The notes beneath the pieces are model-generated. The model searched no databases, was not told the DNA's origin, and was given only the letters and a program-made list of their open reading frames with translations. Both the position numbers and the translations under genes were made by a program. This document shows positions 663 through 15,730 of a stretch of DNA of 44,948 nucleotides, piece by piece. Position 1 is the first letter of the stretch. Each line of letters opens with the position of its first letter. The DNA lies in contig JACDGV010000021.1 in NCBI GenBank assembly GCA_013821425.1, positions 1 through 44,948 of the forward strand, in the 5' to 3' direction. The stretch comes from Nitrosospira sp. (GTDB lineage Bacteria; Pseudomonadota; Gammaproteobacteria; Burkholderiales; Nitrosomonadaceae).

Positions 663-682
663 AATTATATCTCCAGTCCGTC

Positions 683-877
683 GTGTGATCTACATCAAGA
701 CCAAGTTCCAGCATCATTTCCTCCAGATCACGATAACTGATTCCGTATTTGCAATACCACCGGACACAACCCAGAATCATCTCCCCACGGAAATGACGCC
801 ATTTGAAATCTTATATTGATTACCTACCCTGAAAAACATCATGGTGCACCACGCTTCTTATTTTTTGCAACAGAGCC
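683..877 (-). pseudogene. IS6-family element remnant (transposase N-terminus plus one end)
   Basis: This stretch is a diverged copy of the 5' end of the intact IS6 element at 5581-6345. It reads DFKWRHFRGEMILGCVRWYC, then KYGISYRDLEEMMLELGLDV on the minus strand, and ends at 877 in the same GGCTCTGTTGCAAAAAA terminal repeat. The start codon region has changed so that an in-frame TAA precedes DFKW, and the frame runs into unrelated sequence after DVDHTT. It is a dead relic, roughly a quarter of the element. Bases 878-1084 that follow show no gene. Confidence 0.85.
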
Positions 878-1084
878 CTTTCGCTTGACCCAAAACGCGT
901 CAGCTTATAGGCATCGGTCCGGTACACTTTTATTCTGCGATCACCGCGAAAATAAGTGCGCTTCAGTGGTACATTTTTACACCGCTATTTACAATATTTG
1001 ATGAAAACCCTGTCTTGTCCACTTTGGATCACTTCGAAATCCAATATAGATCGCTTGTTTCATTACACTCTTGCACTATTTGCA

Positions 1085-3142
1085 CTATTTGCACTCGTAC
1101 TTCGGGAACCCGGAGCATTTGCCCGACTTGCACTTGTGGTCATTTCCCACTGACCCGGCCTTGCCGCAAGACTGACCTGCGCTGAGTTTCGTCCGGCATG
1201 CATTGATCTTCGTGTCGGAGCCGGCGTCGCACCAATTCCCGGCACCGCAGTCGGAATCGCTTTTGCACACGCAGGTGCCCTTTGTACTATCGATGGCGCT
1301 GCACTTACCTTCCTTGCAGGCGTCATCCACGTAGCAAGTGCCGCCCATCGCTACTGAGTTGGGCGTATAGCAGCGGGAGAATTTGCACTCGCCCCCCTGA
1401 CATTGGTGCCCACCCCCAGCGACATCACAGCTCTCGTTGTCCGCTTTCAGAGCCACGCACTGGTTCTTGCCTACAGTGATCGTCCCCTTGTCGCAGTATT
1501 TACCAGTGCCGCACTCAGAATCGCTGTCGCACACGCAGGTGCCCTTCGTGCCGTTAACAGAGCTGCACTGGCCTTCCTTGCAGGCGTCATCCACGTAGCA
1601 AGTGCCGCCCATTGCTACTGAGTTGGGCGTATAGCAGCGGGAGAATTTGCACTCGCCCCCCTTGCATTGGTGCCCGCCGCCGACAAGATCGCAGCTCTCG
1701 TTGTCCGCCTTCAGGGCCACGCACTGGTTCTTGCCTATTGTGATGGTCCCCTTGTCGCAGTATCGCCCTGCGTCGCAATCAGAATCGCTGTTGCACACAC
1801 TCTGTTTCGTGATGTATCGCGATACAGCCAGATAATGATAAATTGTCCGCTTGTCGGTAGCGCCCCCTTCGCACATTTGGTAGGTATCAGTCGAGAAGGA
1901 TTTGTATTTGGCGCTGAGGCAGCTATTCTCCTTGTCAACGCCATCGTTTGTTTCGCCCCCGTACTCATCGTCCAAGCCGAACGCGTGGCCGACCTCGTGC
2001 AAGTACGTTCCGTCGCTAGTCATGGTGGAGAAGTTGTTGAACTGTACAGGGTTTGATTTGTACATCTGATTGAATCCATAGGGTGGAAACTTGGTCGCAA
2101 AGCGCACCGTGAGATGGTCATTGTCCCGAAGCAGGTCTAGCGTCTCTTTGGGGAATGCGGAATCATTCCGGCCCTTCATGAGTAGCTTGAGCTCGAATTT
2201 GCGGGAGATGGTCCAATAAGTTTCGCTGGTCCGTACAAAGTTATCCAAGATCCAATCCTGTGGCTTAACCTTAATGACCTCGTTGCTCTGTTCCGGATCT
2301 TGCCAAAACAGATCCCGGTCCTCGTCCACACGGCACCCCTCGTACACGAAAGCGTCGTCCTTTTTGTATCGGTACTGAATCTTGCCCAAGCTGATGAACT
2401 TGTTCTCGGAGTCGCGCTTGTAGGCGTTAACGCCACTCTGCCCGTCGTACTTGCCCTCTTCTCCAGGAAAATAAGTGGAGGTCGAGCAAAGCGTTGTCGC
2501 AATGGGCTGTGGGACAGGCTTCAGCGTTAGCACCTGCTCGCCTGTTGAAGGATCCCGCGTAATGATGACTTGTGATGCGTCGTAGAGTCGCCAAGCGTGC
2601 GCAGCCTGTGTCACCGGCGACAGCGTATTCGTTTTGTGGTCGACTTCCCGCTCACCAATGTAGAAATCAACACGATCGGGGACCAGTTCGTTGATGATAG
2701 GCCTGTAAGGAATAGTCATTGTCCAGACCCCGTCATTCTTGCTCAGGACGTAGACGTACTTCTGCTGAGCGGGCGTGATATCGAGGGGTGGCTTTTCAGA
2801 GGGAATGCCGAAGAAGTTGTAGTGCCCCCGGATAACCTTAGGGTCGAGATCGCGCGCCTTCAGTAACTGCTTTCCTTCATTGCTACCGCTGGCAGCCGTC
2901 GCCTTGGCGACCTCGTTCCCCTTGGTGTCACGCCTCCGGTTGCATTCAAGGATTATCTCATTCCACTTACGGTTACCGCGGTGCTCGGCCTTGGGATCGG
3001 AAAAAAGTTCTTCGTAGAAGTCCACATCGCGCTTGGTTTCGGCGGTTGTCGTGGTGTCCTTAACACTGTCGCAAAGATTAGCGTGGGCATGTGTACCGGA
3101 AAATACAAGATACGCCCATAGTAGAGCTAATACTGTTTTCAT
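1085..3142 (-). CDS. Secreted metzincin-like metalloprotease with duplicated Cys-rich modules
   Basis: A 685-residue protein with a signal peptide (MKTVLALLWAYLVFSGTHAHA) and a good ribosome binding site (AGGGAGAG). Residues 382-392 read HEVGHAFGLDD, the HExxHxxGxxD zinc signature; the following EY recalls the M64 (IgA-peptidase-like) proteases, but exact family is uncertain. Residues from Cys450 to the end are Cys-rich: two near-identical 88-residue modules (450-537 and 538-625) and a diverged third (626-685) with patterns such as CxSDSDCGxGxxCD and GGxCYVDDACKEGxC. These are likely disulfide-bonded binding or targeting modules in the exported protein. It lies downstream of the HExxH peptide-modification gene on the same strand, after a roughly 300-bp gap holding one doubtful ORF. 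It may be co-transcribed, but could have its own promoter. A role as the maturation or export protease of the neighbouring peptide is speculation. Confidence 0.8.
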   Translation of the reverse strand: MKTVLALLWAYLVFSGTHAHANLCDSVKDTTTTAETKRDVDFYEELFSDPKAEHRGNRKWNEIILECNRRRDTKGNEVAKATAASGSNEGKQLLKARDLDPKVIRGHYNFFGIPSEKPPLDITPAQQKYVYVLSKNDGVWTMTIPYRPIINELVPDRVDFYIGEREVDHKTNTLSPVTQAAHAWRLYDASQVIITRDPSTGEQVLTLKPVPQPIATTLCSTSTYFPGEEGKYDGQSGVNAYKRDSENKFISLGKIQYRYKKDDAFVYEGCRVDEDRDLFWQDPEQSNEVIKVKPQDWILDNFVRTSETYWTISRKFELKLLMKGRNDSAFPKETLDLLRDNDHLTVRFATKFPPYGFNQMYKSNPVQFNNFSTMTSDGTYLHEVGHAFGLDDEYGGETNDGVDKENSCLSAKYKSFSTDTYQMCEGGATDKRTIYHYLAVSRYITKQSVCNSDSDCDAGRYCDKGTITIGKNQCVALKADNESCDLVGGGHQCKGGECKFSRCYTPNSVAMGGTCYVDDACKEGQCSSVNGTKGTCVCDSDSECGTGKYCDKGTITVGKNQCVALKADNESCDVAGGGHQCQGGECKFSRCYTPNSVAMGGTCYVDDACKEGKCSAIDSTKGTCVCKSDSDCGAGNWCDAGSDTKINACRTKLSAGQSCGKAGSVGNDHKCKSGKCSGFPKYECK
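1268..1795 (-). repeat. Two 264-bp direct repeats inside the metalloprotease gene
   Basis: Copy 1 is 1532-1795 and copy 2 is 1268-1531, in register with the reading frame (88 codons each). The middle of the unit is almost unchanged; differences cluster near the ends. The close nucleotide identity points to a recent duplication or to ongoing homogenisation. Confidence 0.85.
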
Positions 3143-3267
3143 TGGCTCTCCCTCTTATCAATGAGTGGGAGGACATTCTTCCGTACCGAGCATTGAACGG
3201 CTCCCAAAGTGTGTGGCAATGACATGTACAAGAAATCGACGGAACAGGAATATGGCTCTGCCACTGA

Positions 3268-3507
3268 TCACAATCGAAAACGTACGTCTTTGGCTGATAG
3301 CGTCTCAGCCGTAGTGTTCATAAAAGGACTCTGTACGGAATAATGTTCCGTTAAGATTATTTCTCGCTCGGATGAAGCTTCATAAACCTGGAGCTGCGCT
3401 CCAAAAATTAGTGCTGTTAATAATAACTTATCTCCATCGTCCCTAGCATAATTATCCTCGGCAGTATGCACGAACGTGTCGCTGCATCTTTTCAATAGCG
3501 TGTACAA
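3268..3507 (-). CDS. Small ORF of unknown function overlapping the HExxH gene
   Basis: A possible 79-residue product beginning at a TTG and overlapping the 3' end of the HExxH gene by 56 bp in another frame. No convincing ribosome binding site is visible. The sequence (ALIFGAQLQVYEASSEREII in the middle) has no recognisable motif. It could be a real small gene in the operon, a frameshifted former extension of the upstream protein, or chance. It is listed because it fills the gap before the metalloprotease. Confidence 0.25.
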   Translation of the reverse strand: MYTLLKRCSDTFVHTAEDNYARDDGDKLLLTALIFGAQLQVYEASSEREIILTEHYSVQSPFMNTTAETLSAKDVRFRL

Positions 3508-4492
3508 TTTCGGGAGGCGTCTCAGTAGTTCCTACCATTGATGCAGGGTCTGCATGTGCGTAGCCCGAGGCGGCAGTCTCTTGGAGTGATGAGGCATTTG
3601 AACTTGTGCGAGAACTCAGCTTCCAGAAATTGAAGAGTCCATACCAGATGAAGCAAGCATGGATGAACGTATGCAAGCTGAGCTTTCTACCCGTCCAAGG
3701 CGAAGTCAGCAGCTCGTGTTCGTCGTCTGCGACGAAGGCGCCATGAGTGGATTCGAGGTAGTACATTACACCGTGCATCGCCTCGTGAAGTATGAGGCCG
3801 GCAAGGTTGTACGTGGCGACTATCTTATGACCGGGATTGACTAGATCGATCCTGCCAGGTAGCTCTGACGACGATGCCGAACTGACCTCGGGAATCGGCT
3901 GGATGTAGACAGCGATCGACATAGTCGTCGAAAGAACGAAGTCGCGGACCGCAAGGCTTACTTGCTCTAATAACGCCACGGCGCTGTTCAATTTCTGAAC
4001 CACACGTGCACAGTCCGCGCGAGGGTTTAGTGCTGCTTCTGTGAAGCCTCCATCGAAACACGAGTTGACGCTCAAGAAAGGACTTGAAAAATCGACAGGA
4101 ATAACGGTGCCACGCAAGGTCGGTGCGCGGATAGCCCTTCCTGCCTCATCCCATCCGTAGTCTCCCAGCGCCGTCCACACACCGGGAAAAGCTCGGACAC
4201 CAGAGAGGCAAGCGAGCTCTGCTGCCATACTTCGATGAAGGAATCCCAGCGCTAAGTCGGGTTTCTCACGATTAAGTACATAATATGTCGCGGGCGCTGC
4301 TGCAATCCGGCGCACAGCTGTGGTGGGCATCTCGGACCAAACCCTTCGCAGGTGGTCTGATGCGGAAATAACCTGCTCAATCCGTGTACGGTTTTCTGAA
4401 ATGGAGTACTCACGCGCCATTGTAACTGTCAACAGTGGGCGCGATGACCAAGTAAATGATGATACCAACGCATCAATGGTGCTTTTATCCAT
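3452..4492 (-). CDS. Stand-alone HExxH peptide-modification enzyme (aKG-HExxH beta-hydroxylase type)
   Basis: A 346-residue cytosolic-looking protein without signal peptide. Residues 233-250 read LILHEAMHGVMYYLESTH, followed by LLTSPWTGRKLSLHTFIHACF at about 261-281. HExxH, then SPW, then a downstream His (H278 is the likely third metal ligand) is the layout of the HEXXH-motif putative peptide-modification family (TIGR04267). That domain is often fused to the radical SAM enzyme FxsB in FxSxx-COOH systems. Members have been linked to alpha-ketoglutarate-dependent hydroxylation of ribosomal peptides. Here the protein is free-standing and no radical SAM gene is near. About 300 bp upstream on the same strand is a 75-residue peptide gene that is the natural candidate substrate. 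The ATG at 4492 is forced, because an in-frame TGA lies four codons upstream; its ribosome binding site is weak. Family assignment is from motif recognition. Confidence 0.7.
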   Translation of the reverse strand: MDKSTIDALVSSFTWSSRPLLTVTMAREYSISENRTRIEQVISASDHLRRVWSEMPTTAVRRIAAAPATYYVLNREKPDLALGFLHRSMAAELACLSGVRAFPGVWTALGDYGWDEAGRAIRAPTLRGTVIPVDFSSPFLSVNSCFDGGFTEAALNPRADCARVVQKLNSAVALLEQVSLAVRDFVLSTTMSIAVYIQPIPEVSSASSSELPGRIDLVNPGHKIVATYNLAGLILHEAMHGVMYYLESTHGAFVADDEHELLTSPWTGRKLSLHTFIHACFIWYGLFNFWKLSSRTSSNASSLQETAASGYAHADPASMVGTTETPPEIVHAIEKMQRHVRAYCRG

Positions 4493-4622
4493 CCACGCTC
4501 AGATTTCTGCAAAACTCATCGAGTCAAAGACTCCCAATTTATGAGAAAACGTAGTGTATACTGTAGGATGTTTATCGCCTAACGATGAATGCTGGGTTGG
4601 ATGAATTACCAGCCTATCAAAT

Positions 4623-4646
4623 GCATGAACTGCAGCATGAACTGCA
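4623..4646. repeat. 12-bp perfect tandem repeat
   Basis: GCATGAACTGCA occurs twice head to tail (4623-4634 and 4635-4646). It lies in the untranslated stretch between the peptide gene and the HExxH enzyme gene. It is too short to identify as an element; it could be a binding site or simple slippage. Confidence 0.7.
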
Positions 4647-4718
4647 AGCTTCACATACGCCTGTACGCTCCAAAATATAGCAACATATGCAACCCTGGTT
4701 ACATTTCTCAGAAATCTT

Positions 4719-4738
4719 AAGGGCGAACTTCGCCCCTT
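4719..4738 (-). promoter_or_regulatory. Intergenic hairpin after the peptide gene
   Basis: Read on the minus strand, AAGGGGCG pairs with CGCCCTT around an AAGTT loop, with one unpaired base. It lies 62 bp past the stop of the 75-residue peptide gene and 227 bp before the modification enzyme. No U-run follows, so it is not a classical terminator. A hairpin here could protect the peptide mRNA or limit read-through, giving more peptide than enzyme. This is inference from position. Confidence 0.45.
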
Positions 4739-4800
4739 GGCCGCATGGCCGTGGACATTCTGGGGGCTAGTTCAGCCTCTGGGGGCAAGGAGCGTCATTT

Positions 4801-5028
4801 CTACGACGACAAATCGACATTGACAATTATTACAATTTTTTTCTTGATCTTGATCTTCTTTTCACCTGCCCCAGCCTCTCCAATACTTCGCAAGTCATCG
4901 AGTGTCGAGCGATTGAGCGGACCTGTTCCCATTGGCGAATCTGGTGAAACACCCTCTCGAATCGTGACTGAGGTTTTGTCGAGCTCTTCGAGGAGATTAG
5001 CGATCTTCTCGGCTTCTGCTTTGTCCAT
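4801..5028 (-). CDS. Candidate RiPP precursor peptide, 75 residues
   Basis: It starts at an ATG preceded by AAGGAGAT five bases away, one of the best ribosome binding sites in the window, and has its own sigma70-like promoter at 5060-5088. The N-terminal part (KAEAEKIANLLEELDKTSV) is acidic and helical, like a leader. A Gly/Ser/Pro-rich middle follows (SPDSPMGTGP), then GEAGAG, and then a very different tail of alternating Lys and Ile/Val: KKIKIKKKIVIIVNVDLSS. The leader/spacer/core composition and the next gene downstream being an HExxH peptide-modification enzyme together suggest a precursor with the Lys/Ile tail as core. No known family is recognised. It could instead be an unrelated small cationic protein. 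Confidence 0.6.
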   Translation of the reverse strand: MDKAEAEKIANLLEELDKTSVTIREGVSPDSPMGTGPLNRSTLDDLRSIGEAGAGEKKIKIKKKIVIIVNVDLSS

Positions 5029-5059
5029 GAGTATCTCCTTTCTGTTTAAGCAAAGATTT

Positions 5060-5088
5060 ACCTTAATTCAATTAAATACGGTTGTCAA
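5060..5088 (-). promoter_or_regulatory. Sigma70-like promoter of the candidate precursor gene
   Basis: Minus strand: -35 TTGACA (5088-5083), 17-bp spacer, -10 TAAGGT (5065-5060). The -35 box is a perfect consensus match; the -10 box matches three of six. The start codon of the 75-residue peptide is at 5028, so the leader RNA would be about 25 nt. Confidence 0.5.
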
Positions 5089-5121
5089 TCTAGACCAGTG
5101 ACAAAATGTAAAAAACTCAAC

Positions 5122-5193
5122 ACCCACCAGCTAAAGCTGGTGGGTTGGGGTTGCGGACTGAAAGTCGGGATACGCGTCGCCTAAACGACGCGT
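5122..5193. repeat. Two hairpins at the end of the IS200/IS605 remnant
   Basis: The first, 5122-5145, is an 11-bp inverted repeat (ACCCACCAGCT with AGCTGGTGGGT). The second, 5172-5193, is a perfect 8-bp stem (ACGCGTCG with CGACGCGT) around CCTAAA. Subterminal hairpins of this kind are what the Y1 transposase of IS200/IS605 elements recognises, and they lie just beyond the 3' end of the tnpA remnant. The first may also act as a barrier between that element and the peptide promoter. Confidence 0.6.
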
Positions 5194-5227
5194 CCTAATC
5201 GGGTTCCGTTTTGAAATCATCGTTTGG

Positions 5228-5580
5228 TCACGGCTCAAAATGATGCTCCAAATATTGCTTGATCATCTCTTCCGTCATCTGCCCTACCATGGCGCAAAAG
5301 TACCCCCTCGCCCAAAAATGCTTTCCCCAATACCTCTTCTTCAGATGAGGAAACTCTTCAAACAGCTTGCTCGACGTGCAACCCCTGATCCGCCTCATAA
5401 TCTCGCTTGGCGCCCTCGTCGGGGCAACTGGTCAAAATATGCACGTAATCCTCGCTCACTACCCCTTTCACTATCCTGATCTCAAAGGCTTCACATGTCT
5501 CACGCACCAGCTCTCGAACTCGCTCCGCCACGTCCCCGTTCAGTACTTTGTACCGGTACTTCGTTACCCATACAAAATGA
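5228..5580 (-). pseudogene. IS200/IS605-family TnpA (Y1 transposase), triply disrupted
   Basis: The remaining protein begins HFVWVTKYRYKVLNGDVAER and continues through EAFEIRIVKGVVSEDYVHIL. It then shifts frame near 5410-5425 and resumes as SEIMRRIRGCTSSKLFEEFP. It ends with MTEEMIKQYLEHHFEP, which contains the catalytic Tyr, and stops at 5228. Three lesions are visible. An IS6 element cuts off the N-terminus at 5581. One frame change lies in the middle. The HUH metal motif, normally HxH, reads YVH. It is certainly inactive. Confidence 0.85.
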
Positions 5581-6284
5581 GGCTCTGTTGCAAAAAAAAG
5601 GACAAACCAGAGTTCTGGATCTCTCCTGTGATACCTTGGTCTGATATCCAGCTGTCCTTTCTTAAACATCCGCATGAGCTCGAAACCTTTGATGGTGGCG
5701 TAGGCTGTTTTCATCGATTTAAAGCCCCGCACCGGGTTTATCAAGCGTTTGAGCTTGCCATGATCAGCTTCGATAATATTGTTCAAGTATTTGACCTGCC
5801 GGTGCACGGTGTGCGGCGGACACTTTCCTTCGGCTTTTAATTCGGTAATGGCGGACCTGTAAGCGGGCGCCTTGTCCGTATTGATAGCACCGGGGTGCGT
5901 CCAGCGTTTCATGGATTTCAGGGCTTTGCCCAGGAAGCGTTTGGCGGCCTGGGTATTGCGCGTTGGGGAGAGATAGAAATCAATCGTATGGCCGCGCTTA
6001 TCAATGGCCCGGTATAAATACGCCCACTTCCCTTTGACCTTCACATAAGTTTCATCTACCCGCCAACTGTAGCCCATCGTCGGCTTCCAGAACCACCGCA
6101 GGCGTTTTTCCATTTCAGGCGCGTAATGCTGAACCCAACGGTAGAGCGTCGTGTGATCCACCTCAAGACCACGTTCCAGCATCGTTTCCTCCAGGTCACG
6201 ATAACTGATCCCGTATTTGCAATACCACCGGACACCACTCAGAATTATCTCTCCACGAAAGTGACGCCATTTGAAATCCGACAT
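5358..6284 (-). CDS. IS6-family transposase, reading out into tnpA
   Basis: Start MSDFKWRHFRGEIILSGVRW at 6284. The DDE residues of IS6/IS26-type enzymes are visible: WRVDETYVKVKGKWAYLYRA (first Asp), INTDKAPAYRSAI (second Asp) and NNIIEADHGKLKRLI (Glu). All catalytic motifs are intact. The frame has no stop before the terminal repeat, so the last roughly 75 codons translate the repeat (FFATEP) and then part of the interrupted IS200 tnpA in frame, until 5358. The body is that of a normal IS6 transposase of about 230 residues with a foreign tail. Whether the tail harms activity is unknown. Confidence 0.85.
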   Translation of the reverse strand: MSDFKWRHFRGEIILSGVRWYCKYGISYRDLEETMLERGLEVDHTTLYRWVQHYAPEMEKRLRWFWKPTMGYSWRVDETYVKVKGKWAYLYRAIDKRGHTIDFYLSPTRNTQAAKRFLGKALKSMKRWTHPGAINTDKAPAYRSAITELKAEGKCPPHTVHRQVKYLNNIIEADHGKLKRLINPVRGFKSMKTAYATIKGFELMRMFKKGQLDIRPRYHRRDPELWFVLFFATEPHFVWVTKYRYKVLNGDVAERVRELVRETCEAFEIRIVKGVVSEDYVHILTSCPDEGAKRDYEADQGLHVEQAV

Positions 6285-6345
6285 TGATGGCCTACCTTGA
6301 AAAACATCATAGTGCACCACGCTTCTTATTTTTTGCAACAGAGCC
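5581..6345 (-). mobile_element. IS6-family (IS26-like) insertion sequence
   Basis: A 765-bp element bounded by perfect 17-bp terminal inverted repeats (GGCTCTGTTGCAAAAAA at 5581 and its complement ending at 6345). It holds one transposase gene. The 8 bp on either side (CAAAATGA and CCGTTCAG) are not a target-site duplication, so flanking DNA has been rearranged since insertion, consistent with the IS200 gene's N-terminus being absent beyond the right end. Confidence 0.9.
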
Positions 6346-6373
6346 CCGTTCAGTACTGGGCCATTTATGCGAA

Positions 6374-7074: not shown

Positions 7075-7149
7075 TGGGAGACACGGAACCTTATCGCTGC
7101 TATGTAGCCGATACTGCTCGCGCGTTGGTACGGACGATCCCGGAGGGCT

Positions 7150-7371
7150 TTAGCATTCAGTTTTTGACGCCATCCTGATTCTTGCCTGCGCCTCCGCCTT
7201 GTTAACGGCGGAAACCTCGCGCCCGAATGCGTCGCGAGTTTTCCCATCCGCCAGAGCCCCTTTTATGCTGCGTACGCATCGCCATCGTTTCCCCGTCTTT
7301 GTAACGAATAATTGCATTTCACTTCGCGGGTGGGGGGTGTGGCAATGGTAGCAATAAACGGTTGTAGACAT
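7150..7371 (-). CDS. Small zinc-ribbon-like protein
   Basis: 73 residues starting MSTTVYCYHCHTPHPRSEM, with a CxxC pair and a later Cys in GKRWRCVRSIKGAL. The compact N-terminal CxxC followed by Thr-Lys-x-Gly-x-Arg-Trp-Arg-Cys resembles short zinc-ribbon proteins of phages and mobile elements. The C-terminal half is basic and helical. The ribosome binding site is weak. Confidence 0.5.
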   Translation of the reverse strand: MSTTVYCYHCHTPHPRSEMQLFVTKTGKRWRCVRSIKGALADGKTRDAFGREVSAVNKAEAQARIRMASKTEC

Positions 7372-7463
7372 GGTAGCTATAACGACTAAATACCTGTTCC
7401 AACTCTCAATCTCGCGAGGGGGCTAAACCCCTTTTCAAAAGGACCTTTTCCATCTTGAAGCTA

Positions 7464-7673
7464 TCATGTCTTGAATTCAACGGCAGGGGGAGTGTGCATG
7501 AGGGCATCACAATTGCCACCTCCCGGAAACGCGTGATAGGTAACCACCCGGTTCGCTCCAAGCGAGTTTGACGCCTCTTCCGATTCGAGGCGAGCGAGTA
7601 AATCGGCTAACTGCTCATCATTGCCTGGGTTGCCGCTCAAACCGAACATATCTATCCACGTACCTTTGTTCAT
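7464..7673 (-). CDS. Hypothetical small protein, 69 residues
   Basis: Begins MNKGTWIDMFGLSG after an AGGACAGG ribosome binding site. It contains an acidic helix (NDEQLADLLARLESEEASNS) followed by a Gly/Pro/Cys tail (FPGGGNCDALMHTPP). The helix-then-small-tail make-up recalls peptide precursors, but no modification enzyme is adjacent and the similarity is only compositional. Its ATG overlaps the stop of the upstream ORF (TAATG), suggesting coupling if that ORF is real. Confidence 0.45.
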   Translation of the reverse strand: MNKGTWIDMFGLSGNPGNDEQLADLLARLESEEASNSLGANRVVTYHAFPGGGNCDALMHTPPAVEFKT

Positions 7674-8017
7674 TATCCTGTCCTTTCTTCTTTCAAGTGA
7701 GAAACGCGGAACCGCGCCATGGAGGCAATGCTCTCACTTGGCGGCAAAGAAATCTGTGCGGTTTGCCACTTATCGTCCTTGAGAAGGCTAATGACGCCCC
7801 ATGGACATTGACACCTTGGCTGCGAGCCTCTGACCCCAGTGAAAACCCATAACCTCTTCACTGGAGGGAGTCGTACGAGTACAACCTGCCGGATTCTGCG
7901 CTGATGCGTCAGCAGGTCCTGGTGTACGTTGGATATCACCACGAACCGCCCTGGCCAGTAGTTTCCTCCCCGCCCGTTCTTATCTGCCTTTGAGGCTAAC
8001 CAAAAAACGGTGATCAC
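7673..8017 (-). CDS. Doubtful ORF, 114 residues
   Basis: An open frame from a GTG that would give a basic product (SKADKNGRGGNYWPGRFVVI). It lacks a clear ribosome binding site and any known motif. In its favour, its TAA overlaps the ATG of the next small gene, and it is the only sizeable frame in the 400 bp before trxC. Otherwise that gap shows nothing. Confidence 0.25.
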   Translation of the reverse strand: MITVFWLASKADKNGRGGNYWPGRFVVISNVHQDLLTHQRRIRQVVLVRLPPVKRLWVFTGVRGSQPRCQCPWGVISLLKDDKWQTAQISLPPSESIASMARFRVSHLKEERTG

Positions 8018-8074
8018 CTTGAAGACGGCGCAGGTGTCCCCACTTGCTTAAATTACAGTCCTGGAGGAATTATC

Positions 8075-8515
8075 ATGAGCGATTCCCTGCATCTTGTCTG
8101 CCCCCTGTGCCAGGCAATAAACCGCGTGCCAGCCCCACGGCTCGGCCAGCGGCCCAATTGCGGGCAATGTCACCTGCCATTGTTCACCGGGCACCCCGTG
8201 GAGCTCACGGCTACGGCTTTTGCCAGGCATCTGGACCGAAACGATATACCGGTACTGGTGGATTACTGGGCGCCCTGGTGCGGGCCCTGCAAGATGATGG
8301 CTCCCGCCTTCGTACAGGCCGCAGCCATGCTGGAACCGCAAGTTCGTCTGGCGAAAGTGAACACCGATACTGAACAAACGCTGGGCGCGAAATACCACAT
8401 CCGCAGCATACCGACTCTGATCCTGTTTCGGGAGGGCCGGGAGGTGGCGCGGCACGCAGGTGCGATGACAGCCCAGGCCATCGTGGATTGGGTTCGTTCT
8501 GATCAACTCGGTTAG
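8075..8515 (+). CDS. trxC: Thioredoxin-2 (TrxC)
   Basis: 146 residues. An N-terminal zinc ribbon has four cysteines (C9, C12, C29, C32: CPLC...CGQC). The thioredoxin fold that follows has the redox site WCGPC at 68-72 and the cis-Pro in SIPTLILF. This zinc-bearing form reduces protein disulfides in the cytosol and is associated with oxidative stress in other proteobacteria. Length matches the family, about 140 residues. A GGAGGA ribosome binding site precedes the ATG. It appears to be transcribed alone. Confidence 0.93.
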   Translation: MSDSLHLVCPLCQAINRVPAPRLGQRPNCGQCHLPLFTGHPVELTATAFARHLDRNDIPVLVDYWAPWCGPCKMMAPAFVQAAAMLEPQVRLAKVNTDTEQTLGAKYHIRSIPTLILFREGREVARHAGAMTAQAIVDWVRSDQLG

Positions 8516-11995: not shown

Positions 11996-14900
11996 CTACC
12001 GGTCATACGCCAGGACTGGCGCAAGCCATTGTTCTGCTTGTTCCAGTGGCCAGCCTTTGCGTTTTGCGTAGTCCTCCACCTGGTCCTTGCCTATTTTGCC
12101 CACCGCAAAGTAATCGGCATCGGGGTGAGAGAAATAAAACCCTGATACCGCCGCGGTAGGCACCATGGCGTAGGATTCGGTTATGATAATCCCGGCGTTT
12201 TCGGGGGCTTTTAACAGCTCGAACAAAGGTCCTTTCTCAGTGTGGTCAGGACAGGCCGGGTAACCGGGCGCGGGGCGAATGCCACGATAGTCCTCCGCGA
12301 CGAGCTGTTCCTGGCTCAGGTTTTCGTCCTTGGCAAAACCCCAGAACTCGCGCCGTACCCGCCAGTGCATGTGCTCGGCAAAGGCCTCCGCCAGCCGATC
12401 GGCCAGCGCCTTCAATATAATCGCGCTGTAATCGTCATGCGCCTCCTCGAAGGCCTTTATGCGGGCATCTATGCCCATCCCGGCAGTAACCGCAAAGGCG
12501 CCGACAGTGTCGCGGACCCCGGTTTCCTTGGGGGCGATAAAATCCGCTAGACATAGATTTGGACGTCCGGAAGGCTTCATGGTCTGCTGCCGCAGATTGT
12601 GGAACGTCATGGCCAGCCGCGTGCGGCCTTTATCCGCATAGATTTCAATGTCATCGCTGTTTACAGTATTGGCGGGGAACAGCCCGAACACCGCATTGGC
12701 GGTCAGCCATTTCTGCTCCACGATCTTCTTTAGCATGGCTTGGGCATCCCGGTACAGGGTGCTCGCCGCTTCGCCCACGACTTCGTCTTGGAGAATCGCT
12801 GGAAACCGACCCGACAACTCCCATGCCTGGAAGAAAGGCGTCCAGTCAATGAAAGGCAGCAGTTTTTCCAGTGGATAATTCCTTAAAGATCTTACCCCGA
12901 TAAAATCCGGTTCAGCCGGGACGTAGTTCGCCCAATCGGTCTTGAATGCATTTTTGCGGGCTTCCGCTATCGACAGCATCGGTGCTGGTCCTTTCTTGTT
13001 CTTATGCTGGGTACGCACCCGCTCGTATTCTGTCTGGATATCTCGCACGTACCCTGCCCGTAAATCCTCTGACAACAGATTGCTGCACACGCCTACAGCG
13101 CGGCTCGCATCCGGCACCCAAACGGTAACACCGCGGCTGTAATGGGGTGCCACTTTCACGGCAGTATGCACGCGCGAAGTCGTTGCACCGCCGATCAGTA
13201 ACGGAACGGTGAAACCTTCGCGCTCCATTTCCTTTGCCACGTGTGCCATTTCCTCCAGCGAAGGGGTGATCAGGCCAGACAGCCCGATCATGTCGGCGTT
13301 CTCGCGTCGTGCCGTTTCAAGAATCTGTGCGCAGGGCACCATCACGCCCATATTCACCACTTCATAATTGTTGCACTGCAGTACCACCGTAACAATATTC
13401 TTTCCTATGTCATGCACGTCACCCTTGACCGTAGCGATGACAATCTTGCCCTTGGGCCTGGAATCTCCCGATAACTTCTTTTCGGCTTCGATGAACGGAA
13501 GCAGGTGCGCCACCGCCTGCTTCATCACCCGTGCCGATTTGACTACCTGGGGCAAAAACATCTTGCCGGAGCCAAACAGGTCGCCCACTACATTCATTCC
13601 CTTCATAAGCGGGCCCTCGATCACTTGGATGGGTCGTCCGCCTTCCTTGGCTATTTCGAGCCGCGCCGTCTCGGTATCTTCCACGATATAGGTGGTAATC
13701 CCCCTGACCAGCGCGTGAGTCAGACGTTGCTGTACCGGCTGGTCACGCCAGGCAAGATCCTCGATGTTCTCCTTGCTCTGTCCCTTGAAGCTCTCGGCAA
13801 ATTCCACCAGACGCTCGGTGGTGCTGGCATCTCCTCCTCCCTGGGGGGTGCGGTTGAGCAGCACATCCTCGACTCGTTCCAGCAAATCCTTGGGGATGTC
13901 AGAATAAACGCCGAGCTGACCGGCGTTGACAATGCCCATGGTCATGCCAGCCTGGATCGCGTGATAAAGAAAAGCAGTATGAATCGCTTCGCGCACCGGT
14001 TCATTGCCGCGGAAGGAGAATGAAACATTGGACACACCGCCGCTCACCTTGGTGCAAGGGAGCGTTTGCTTGATGATCCGGGTCGCTTCGATAAAATCCA
14101 CCCCGTAATTGTTATGTTCCTCAATACCGGTGGCTACGGCGAAAATATTTGGATCAAAAATGATGTCCTCAGGCGGAAAATCGACCTGATCCACCAGGGT
14201 GCGGTAGCAGCGCGTGCAGATATCCACTTTGCGTTGCATGGTGTCGGCCTGGCCTGATTCATCGAACGCCATGACAATTACCGCCGCGCCGTAGCGCCGC
14301 GCGAGCTTCGCGTGCTCTATAAACTCCGCTTTGCCCTCCTTCAAGCTGATGGAATTGATAATAGCCTTGCCTTGTACGCATTTCAGGCCCGCCTCGATTA
14401 CCGACCATTTGCTCGAATCGAGCATGACCGGCACCCGGCTGATATCGGGTTCGGCGGCGACCAGGTTCATGAAAGTCACCATGGCTTTTTGCGAATCCAG
14501 CATCGCTTCGTCCATGTTGATATCGATGATCTGCGCCCCGTTTTCCACTTGGCTCCGGGCGACGCTAAGCGCTTCCGCATAATTATTACTCAGTATCAAC
14601 CGTGCAAAAGCTTTTGAGCCGGTGACGTTGGTACGTTCGCCTACATTCACGAACAGCGAATCGTCGCCAATGTTGAGTGGTTCCAGGCCGGAGAGCCGCA
14701 ACTTCTTTGGAATATCGGGCACGATGCGTGGCGCGAGACCACCCACCGTGTCGGCGATAGCCTTGATATGCGCAGGCGTGGTACCGCAGCAACCCCCGAC
14801 GATGTTGACGAAACCGGATTGCGCAAATTCCCTGATCAGGCTCGCGGTGTATTCAGGTGATTCGTCGTACCCTGTTTCGGCCAGCGGATTGGGCAGGCCG

Positions 14901-15730
14901 GCATTGGGGTGGGCGCTGACATACACCCCGGCAACTGCGGAGAGTTCCTCGATATACGGACGCATCAATTCCGCACCCAGCGCGCAATTGAGCCCCACGG
15001 ACAAGGGGCGGGCGTGACTTACGGAGTTCCAGAAGGCTTCCGGTGTTTGTCCCGAGAGCGTGCGTCCGGATGCATCGGTTATGGTCGCCGAAATCATGAT
15101 GGGAATACGCACGCCGTGTGTCTCGAAATACTGGTCTATCGCGAACAGTGCGGCTTTTGCATTCAGCGTGTCGAATATTGTTTCGACGAGGAGAATGTCC
15201 GCACCGCCATCGATCAGGCCATGGATACTTGCCGTATAGTCGGTAACCAGCTGGTCAAAGGTTATGCCGCGAAAACCGGGGTCATTCACATCCGGCGAAA
15301 TCGAAGCCGTCTTGGTGGTCGGCCCCAGCACGCCGGCTACGAAGCGCGGTTTCTCCGGTGTTTTGGCTTCCATCGCCTCCGCGGCTTCGCGCGCCAGCCG
15401 GGCTCCCGCAAAGTTGAGTTCGTGTACCAGATCCTGCATGTGGTAATCCGCCATCGAGGCAGCGTTGGAATTGAATGTATTGGTCTCGATGATATCCGCG
15501 CCCGCTTCAAGGTAAGCCTCATGAATGGAACGGATAACCTGCGGCTGGGTGAGGGTCAGGAGATCGTTGTTTCCCCTGAGATCGTGGGAAAAATTGGCGA
15601 AGCGCGCACCCCGATAATCGGCCTCGTTGAGTTTGTGGCCCTGTATCATCGTTCCCATCGCGCCGTCCAGCAGCAATATGCGGCGAGAGAGAAGGTTTTT
15701 CAGCAATTCGGTACGGGGGGTTTCATTCAT
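11996..15730 (-). CDS. metH: Cobalamin-dependent methionine synthase
   Basis: 1244 residues, full length. Transfers a methyl group from 5-methyltetrahydrofolate to homocysteine. Modules in order: homocysteine domain with the zinc cysteines ([10 protein letters not shown] and [10 protein letters not shown]), pterin domain ([19 protein letters not shown] in context), B12 cap and Rossmann domain with [10 protein letters not shown] (axial ligand H773), and the AdoMet-dependent reactivation domain ([15 protein letters not shown]). All key residues are present. The ATG at 15730 has a poor ribosome binding site. No cobalamin riboswitch is recognisable upstream. It is convergent with spoT, with about 90 bp between the stops and no clear terminator. 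Confidence 0.96.

Follow-up and report, generated by a model that had tools for sequence, protein, structure and literature searches.

Hydroxylases of the alpha-ketoglutarate-dependent HExxH (aKG-HExxH) type are recent additions to the enzymes known from clusters for ribosomally synthesised and post-translationally modified peptides (RiPPs), and the published ones that we examined work inside multi-enzyme clusters. In ChlBH the aKG-HExxH domain (ChlH; PDB 8s5f) is part of a radical SAM cyclophane synthase, and it acts after the cyclophane has been installed. Other members are separate proteins. PflC and PosC of Pseudomonas are encoded near a small precursor and act on consecutive similar residues close to its C-terminal end; the pfl cluster also holds an MNIO-nitroreductase, GNAT and transporters, and the pfl/pos precursor has a nitrile-hydratase-like leader, consecutive Gln residues and an ARMD motif. 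According to the available text of the reports, PesO of the nitrilobacillin cluster (PMC13060819) and the biphenomycin hydroxylases BpmH (PMC12257519) and BipH (PMC12707348) are also separately encoded, in multi-enzyme clusters with an MNIO together with arginase or AS-like enzymes and with other precursors.

Here we describe a candidate precursor gene and an aKG-HExxH-type enzyme gene in a 44,948-nucleotide stretch of a Nitrosospira sp. contig (JACDGV010000021.1, assembly GCA_013821425.1; hereafter the window). The precursor open reading frame (ORF; 75 residues, positions 4801-5028) is followed on the same minus strand by the stand-alone enzyme ORF (346 residues, 3452-4492), with 308 bp between them (4493-4800), just as a preliminary description of the sequence had placed them. 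We lean towards reading this pair as a minimal RiPP locus on an insert bounded by insertion sequences (IS). No MNIO-nitroreductase, GNAT or transporter genes like those of the pfl cluster were seen with it, nor any of the pfl/pos precursor features. The preliminary description had also presented as novel that the enzyme stands alone. aKG-HExxH enzymes encoded separately within RiPP clusters are already known (available text of PMC12636437, PMC12707348 and PMC13060819), and pairs of a short ORF and an HExxH gene recur among relatives of the enzyme, so this claim is not supported; measured against the open-licence literature searched, the novelty lies in the kind of precursor and in a locus of only two genes.

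The enzyme and its candidate precursor

No further domain was found in the enzyme by NCBIfam or Pfam. Against NCBIfam TIGR04267, the family proposed in the preliminary description, it scored 36.4 bits in a protein scan and 38.0 bits in a genome search. The family was thus matched, but under its curated cut-off of 40 bits, and the class was assigned through the fold. The outcome that had been named beforehand as fatal, no match to the HExxH family, was narrowly avoided, and the predicted fold settles the class. The structure model was confident, and its overall fold was that of ChlBH/SjiH (16% identity to ChlH in structural alignment), much nearer to the hydroxylases than to zincin peptidases. 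For comparison, a value of 9.3e-8 against TIGR04267 has been reported, from a different search, for Os1350 of Pseudomonas sp. Os17 (available text of PMC7726476); we infer that Os1350 is PosC, which was shown to be active.

The three motifs picked out earlier were all located: HEAMH (residues 236-240, codons at 3773-3787, minus strand), SPW (residues 264-266, 3695-3703, minus strand) and HTFIHA (residues 274-279). H236, E237, H240, S264, P265 and W266 were invariant across a 14-row alignment. H278 and A279, within FIHACF, were invariant in a 5-row alignment and not in the 14-row one as aligned, and they match LLHAIF of ChlH; His278 (3659-3661, minus strand) is a candidate third iron ligand. 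The enzyme therefore carries the conserved HExxH, SPW and downstream HA of the class. Together, motifs and modelled fold support its placement among the aKG-HExxH-type oxygenases; its predicted activity would be Fe(II)/alpha-ketoglutarate-dependent hydroxylation of a peptide.

In contrast to ChlH, the window enzyme has no radical SAM domain, either fused or adjacent, of the ChlB type or of the FxsB type mentioned earlier, and the proposal that it stands alone held up. No ORF of at least 200 residues in the whole window contained CxxxCxxC. A profile built from the radical SAM partners of five relatives (L011, L012, L013, L025 and L052) matched both control genomes (G528, 1.2e-63; G284, 2.4e-21) and found nothing in the Nitrosospira genome (99.86% complete), a search that did not extend to B12-type radical SAM proteins. 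A SPASM search of the genome was also without a match, when the control matched in 8 of 14 genomes; this is weaker evidence, because the relatives' partners themselves gave no SPASM match at E 0.001. Among the three insert proteins scanned, the enzyme was the only recognised modifying enzyme.

As is typical of a RiPP precursor, the 75-codon ORF is short and lies near a modifying enzyme. Its ATG is preceded, at a spacing of 6 nt, by the Shine-Dalgarno sequence AAGGAG (5035-5040, minus strand), confirming the strong ribosome binding site claimed for it; a match of at least 6 nt was found for only 4 of the 228 window ORFs of at least 60 residues, this one included, when the first start codon of each ORF was taken. 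The perfect -35 box described earlier fared less well: TTGACA is present (5083-5088, minus strand), but it has no convincing -10 box, and a sigma-70 consensus scan lists no promoter there. The codon score of the ORF was 0.145. Spurious ORFs averaged -0.156, with 7 of 90 reaching 0.145, and pieces of long ORFs averaged 0.219, with 23 of 105 at or below 0.145. Since the enzyme, which is real by homology, itself scores -0.02, the codon test is weak in this stretch and its result in favour of coding is suggestive only.

In the predicted peptide an acidic N-terminal stretch (residues 1-50) is joined through an EAGAGE hinge (51-56) to a Lys/Ile tail (57-75; KKIKIKKKIVIIVNVDLSS; 4804-4860, minus strand), the acidic and Lys/Ile ends being as first described. 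Besides Asn70 and Asp72, the tail contains eight Val/Ile. His, Gln, Phe, Pro and aromatic residues of any kind are absent from it, and the PflA/PosA signature of consecutive Gln plus ARMD near the C-terminus is missing. The peptide had been called an unfamiliar precursor type, and homology searches of genus and class genomes, plasmids and viral contigs agree. There was no homologue in the 22 other genomes of the genus or in viral contigs, and the single plasmid match had an E-value of 10. Matches at E <=1 occurred in 71 of 369 genomes of the class; the best besides the query (E 0.04) contained an internal stop, and these were taken as chance.

Pairing of short reading frames with HExxH genes

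Whether the small ORF belongs with the enzyme was assessed by comparison with other genes of the same loci. A qualifying ORF had to start with ATG, carry a Shine-Dalgarno match of at least 4, encode 40-115 residues and lie at most 450 bp upstream and outside any gene. Such ORFs preceded 12 of 25 HExxH genes (the window and 24 relatives, excluding the same-genus loci L014-L019 and the L021-locus duplicates L010, L026 and L041) and 12 of 125 other genes (Fisher p = 2.6e-5), a comparison among related, non-independent genes under a rule fixed after most of the ORFs had been seen. One of the 12 upstream ORFs (L028) is a radical SAM fragment by eye. The control count is if anything too high, because the control ORFs of L025, L029 and L052 are precursor-like and belong to the same clusters. 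This enrichment favours the view that the 75-codon ORF and the enzyme gene are partners.

By sequence, the enzyme is rare and divergent. Single-sequence searches found no relative in the genome_contigs, viral_contigs or phages collections, and among 274 genomes of the class only its own was retrieved. Three Rhizobium records were found among plasmids (30-33% identity), and an alignment search of an 84,980-species collection reached nine enzyme loci. With the 14-row profile, 9 of 398 genomes of the phylum and 8 of 399 of the order matched, its own counted in each. The nearest tree row by identity was L011 (27%). In a tree of 27 rows the enzyme fell within a 15-row group (98/97).

The neighbourhoods of the relatives were sorted into five types, with L051, L053 and L055 left outside. 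Type (i) has a radical SAM neighbour by Pfam (L011, L012, L013, L025, L052, L058, and L023 with a B12-binding domain under cut-off); in L028 such a neighbour is a by-eye reading of a fragment only, with no Pfam match. Type (ii) has precursors with Sec-like signals, by eye (L021, L030, L031, L029, L047, L027, L048). Type (iii) has a short ORF directly upstream of the HExxH gene and no radical SAM tag (L050, L054, L056, and L057, whose upstream ORF has a Shine-Dalgarno match of 4 only). Type (iv) is L024, with a beta-lactamase-fold partner. In type (v), L049:4436-7558, from the same class as the window genome, the HExxH gene is followed by an MNIO-nitroreductase fusion; this pfl-type relative lies outside the 15-row group, which holds the window enzyme together with type (ii), part of type (i), L028 and L024.

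Most like the window pair in layout are L054 and L056 (same phylum) and L050 (same order), each with a short basic-tailed ORF directly upstream of the HExxH gene and no radical SAM tag nearby (L054:3752-3925; L056:3561-3758; L050:3161-3337). They differ in that their peptides have 57-65 residues with (K/Q)LLGF, those of L054 and L056 having Lys/Gly tails, and in that their enzymes lie elsewhere in the tree. These relatives suggest that lone HExxH genes accompanied by a short ORF occur repeatedly.

The type (ii) enzymes form one clade (100/99) which, compared with the window pair, may be a broader RiPP group and one easier to test, and our search of open-licence literature found no paper on it. 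The ORFs lie at L021:6433-6995 and 7147-8196, L030:5144-5446, L031:133-399, L029:7148-7486, L047:5542-5850 and L027:5283-5549, and L048 has a 102-residue ORF before the enzyme gene. Residue runs occur in 5 of the 7 loci: 11 Gln in each of the two L021 precursors, 20 Gln in L030, 8 Gln in L031, 12 Asn in L029 (where the precursor is downstream) and a His-rich stretch in L047. In all except L048 the precursor ends in GFDA, GFTV, GFDV, GFGF, RFDV or SFDV, the usual terminal motif being F(D/T/G)(V/A/F). Records of this type carry the labels Chitinimonas, Alphaproteobacteria, Bacteriovoracaceae, Kurthia and Frateuria.

Two further motifs were observed among the relatives. FDRxFNK is common to precursor-like ORFs of L025 (3116-3451; FDRCFNK three times) and L052 (61 residues; FDRVFNK once), both of which have a radical SAM gene and an HExxH gene next to them, the L052 ORF preceding the radical SAM gene. 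HDQTHSxG occurs in ORFs upstream of HExxH genes in L011:1643-3553, L012:2087-3535 and L028:254-520, as many repeats before the radical SAM gene in two Rhizobium plasmids and as a single copy in a short ORF in Kitasatospora.

Proposed chemistry and competing explanations

We propose that the 75-residue peptide would be translated from its own strong ribosome-binding site, that its acidic N-terminal half would dock on the 346-residue enzyme as a leader, and that the tail would reach into an Fe(II)/alpha-ketoglutarate centre made of HEAMH plus perhaps His278. According to the available text on pfl/pos (PMC12636437), oxygen activation seems to depend on gating by the N-terminal portion of the peptide, with the enzyme working close to the C-terminal end. 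The residues reported as class substrates are His, Asp, Phe, Gln and Pro (available text of PMC13060819), and work with PosC variants and engineered substrates added hydroxy-Asn and a product for which beta-hydroxy-Val is the best explanation (available text of PMC12636437). Because the tail offers Asn70, Asp72 and eight Val/Ile, and Asn, Asp and Val are precedented, oxygen would be expected at beta-carbons near the C-terminus, first at Asn70 and/or Asp72 and perhaps at Val/Ile of the IVIIVNV run. The preliminary description had envisaged hydroxylation of an alternating Lys/Ile core, but neither Lys nor Ile is given as a residue modified by the class in the available text of the literature examined. 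No radical SAM step would come beforehand, and leader removal and export would fall to host proteases or to a 685-residue metalloprotease-like neighbour. If true, such a one-peptide, one-enzyme pair would be a clean system for leader recognition and residue choice in this class, and the substrates of the class could extend to aliphatic, Lys-rich sequences.

Several observations weigh against a self-contained RiPP locus. The enzyme scores below the TIGR04267 naming cut-off, its position within the 15-row group is unplaced on a long branch with several radical-SAM-linked lineages alongside, and B12-type radical SAM proteins, as beside L023, lay outside the genome search. The enzyme ATG has no recognisable Shine-Dalgarno sequence, a weak terminator-like hairpin lies in the gap (4521-4533), and the pair has no clear link to a gene for a protease, a transporter or immunity. 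With no precursor relative found, there is no covariation of peptide and enzyme to compare. Gap, hairpin, missing Shine-Dalgarno sequence and the IS beside the promoter together leave room for a relic, or for a small ORF that has nothing to do with the enzyme, and IS elements could have cut down a larger cluster.

A relic of this kind, in which the maturase of a radical SAM plus HExxH cluster was lost via IS and the orphan enzyme needs a pre-installed crosslink, is in our view unlikely. It would account for the IS copies on both sides and for the IS200/IS605 element right at the precursor promoter, and members of the enzyme's tree group with SPW(T/S)G...H.F.HAC mostly adjoin a radical SAM gene (L011, L012, L013, L025 and L023, and by eye L028). 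Against it, the enzyme ORF is full length with its invariant residues and a confident model, and the precursor tail lacks an aromatic residue, the usual site of cyclophane formation. In L024, of the same tree group, neither of two scanned flanking genes is a radical SAM gene.

That the 75-residue ORF is instead a small host or mobile-element protein, with the enzyme acting on another peptide or protein, seems to us decidedly unlikely. The 308-bp gap, the absence of shared operon signals and of homologues, and the intermediate codon score would fit; the common strand, the strong Shine-Dalgarno sequence and the higher frequency of such ORFs next to HExxH genes argue the other way.

A fuller version of the two-gene reading is very unlikely as a whole: a self-sufficient RiPP whose single enzyme, working with no radical SAM protein, MNIO or dedicated protease, would beta-hydroxylate Val/Ile/Asn/Asp and release the tail by alpha-oxidation at AGAG, yielding an oxidised cationic amphipathic peptide as inter-IS cargo. 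Least probable of all is a peptidase or oxidative cleaver that, instead of hydroxylating side chains, splits the peptide by hydrolysis or at the alpha-carbons of Ala/Gly. An AGAG hinge does precede the tail, and according to the available text of PMC12636437 PflC and PosC cleave oxidatively before Ala and partly before Gly, and PflC shows proteolytic activity without leader; in the same text, PosC did not cut motifs placed nearer the leader, which also counts against AGAG release here. The fold is much nearer to hydroxylases than to zincin peptidases.

The probable insert and its mobile elements

Directly upstream of the precursor lies an IS200/IS605-type tnpA element (5114-5560, minus strand; 80% identity to plasmid IS200/IS605 tnpA genes), and the ORF at 5358-6338 is a transposase (Y1_Tnp by Pfam). 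The right border is a DDE_Tnp_IS240-type element with terminal repeats GGCTCTGTTGCAAA (5581-6345, minus strand), which we take to be of the IS6 family. A remnant of a second copy in the same orientation forms the left border (679-878, minus strand), with 90.5% identity over 200 bp to 6147-6346. G+C content is 51% for 878-5580 and 55% from 6401 onward. Searches of the 22 remaining genus genomes showed no counterpart of the peptide, the enzyme (via an HExxH family search) or the 685-residue protein. Not found elsewhere in the genus and flanked by IS copies, the three genes have the appearance of an acquired insert and resemble an IS-bounded mobile unit.

An HExxH match was found in 6 of the 22 other genus genomes (75-90 bits each), in a different kind of cluster. 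A CxxxCxxC protein was observed in all six of these same-genus loci (L014-L019; radical SAM/SPASM by Pfam in L014), and by eye metH was near the HExxH gene in four of the six and a FAD-oxidoreductase-like gene in four. The window's own genome held no second HExxH match, although metH is present by eye in the window (11996-15730).

The third gene of the insert encodes the 685-residue metalloprotease-like protein (1085-3142, minus strand), by eye a putative secreted protein with HEVGHAFGLDDEY and Cys-rich repeats. It was not matched in plasmids, and its NCBIfam and Pfam matches were weak and every one under cut-off; it is a possible but unproven maturation partner of the pair. Its Cys-rich repeats, in a protein that carries HEVGH, are encoded by tandem 264-bp repeats that are 86% identical (1226-1753).
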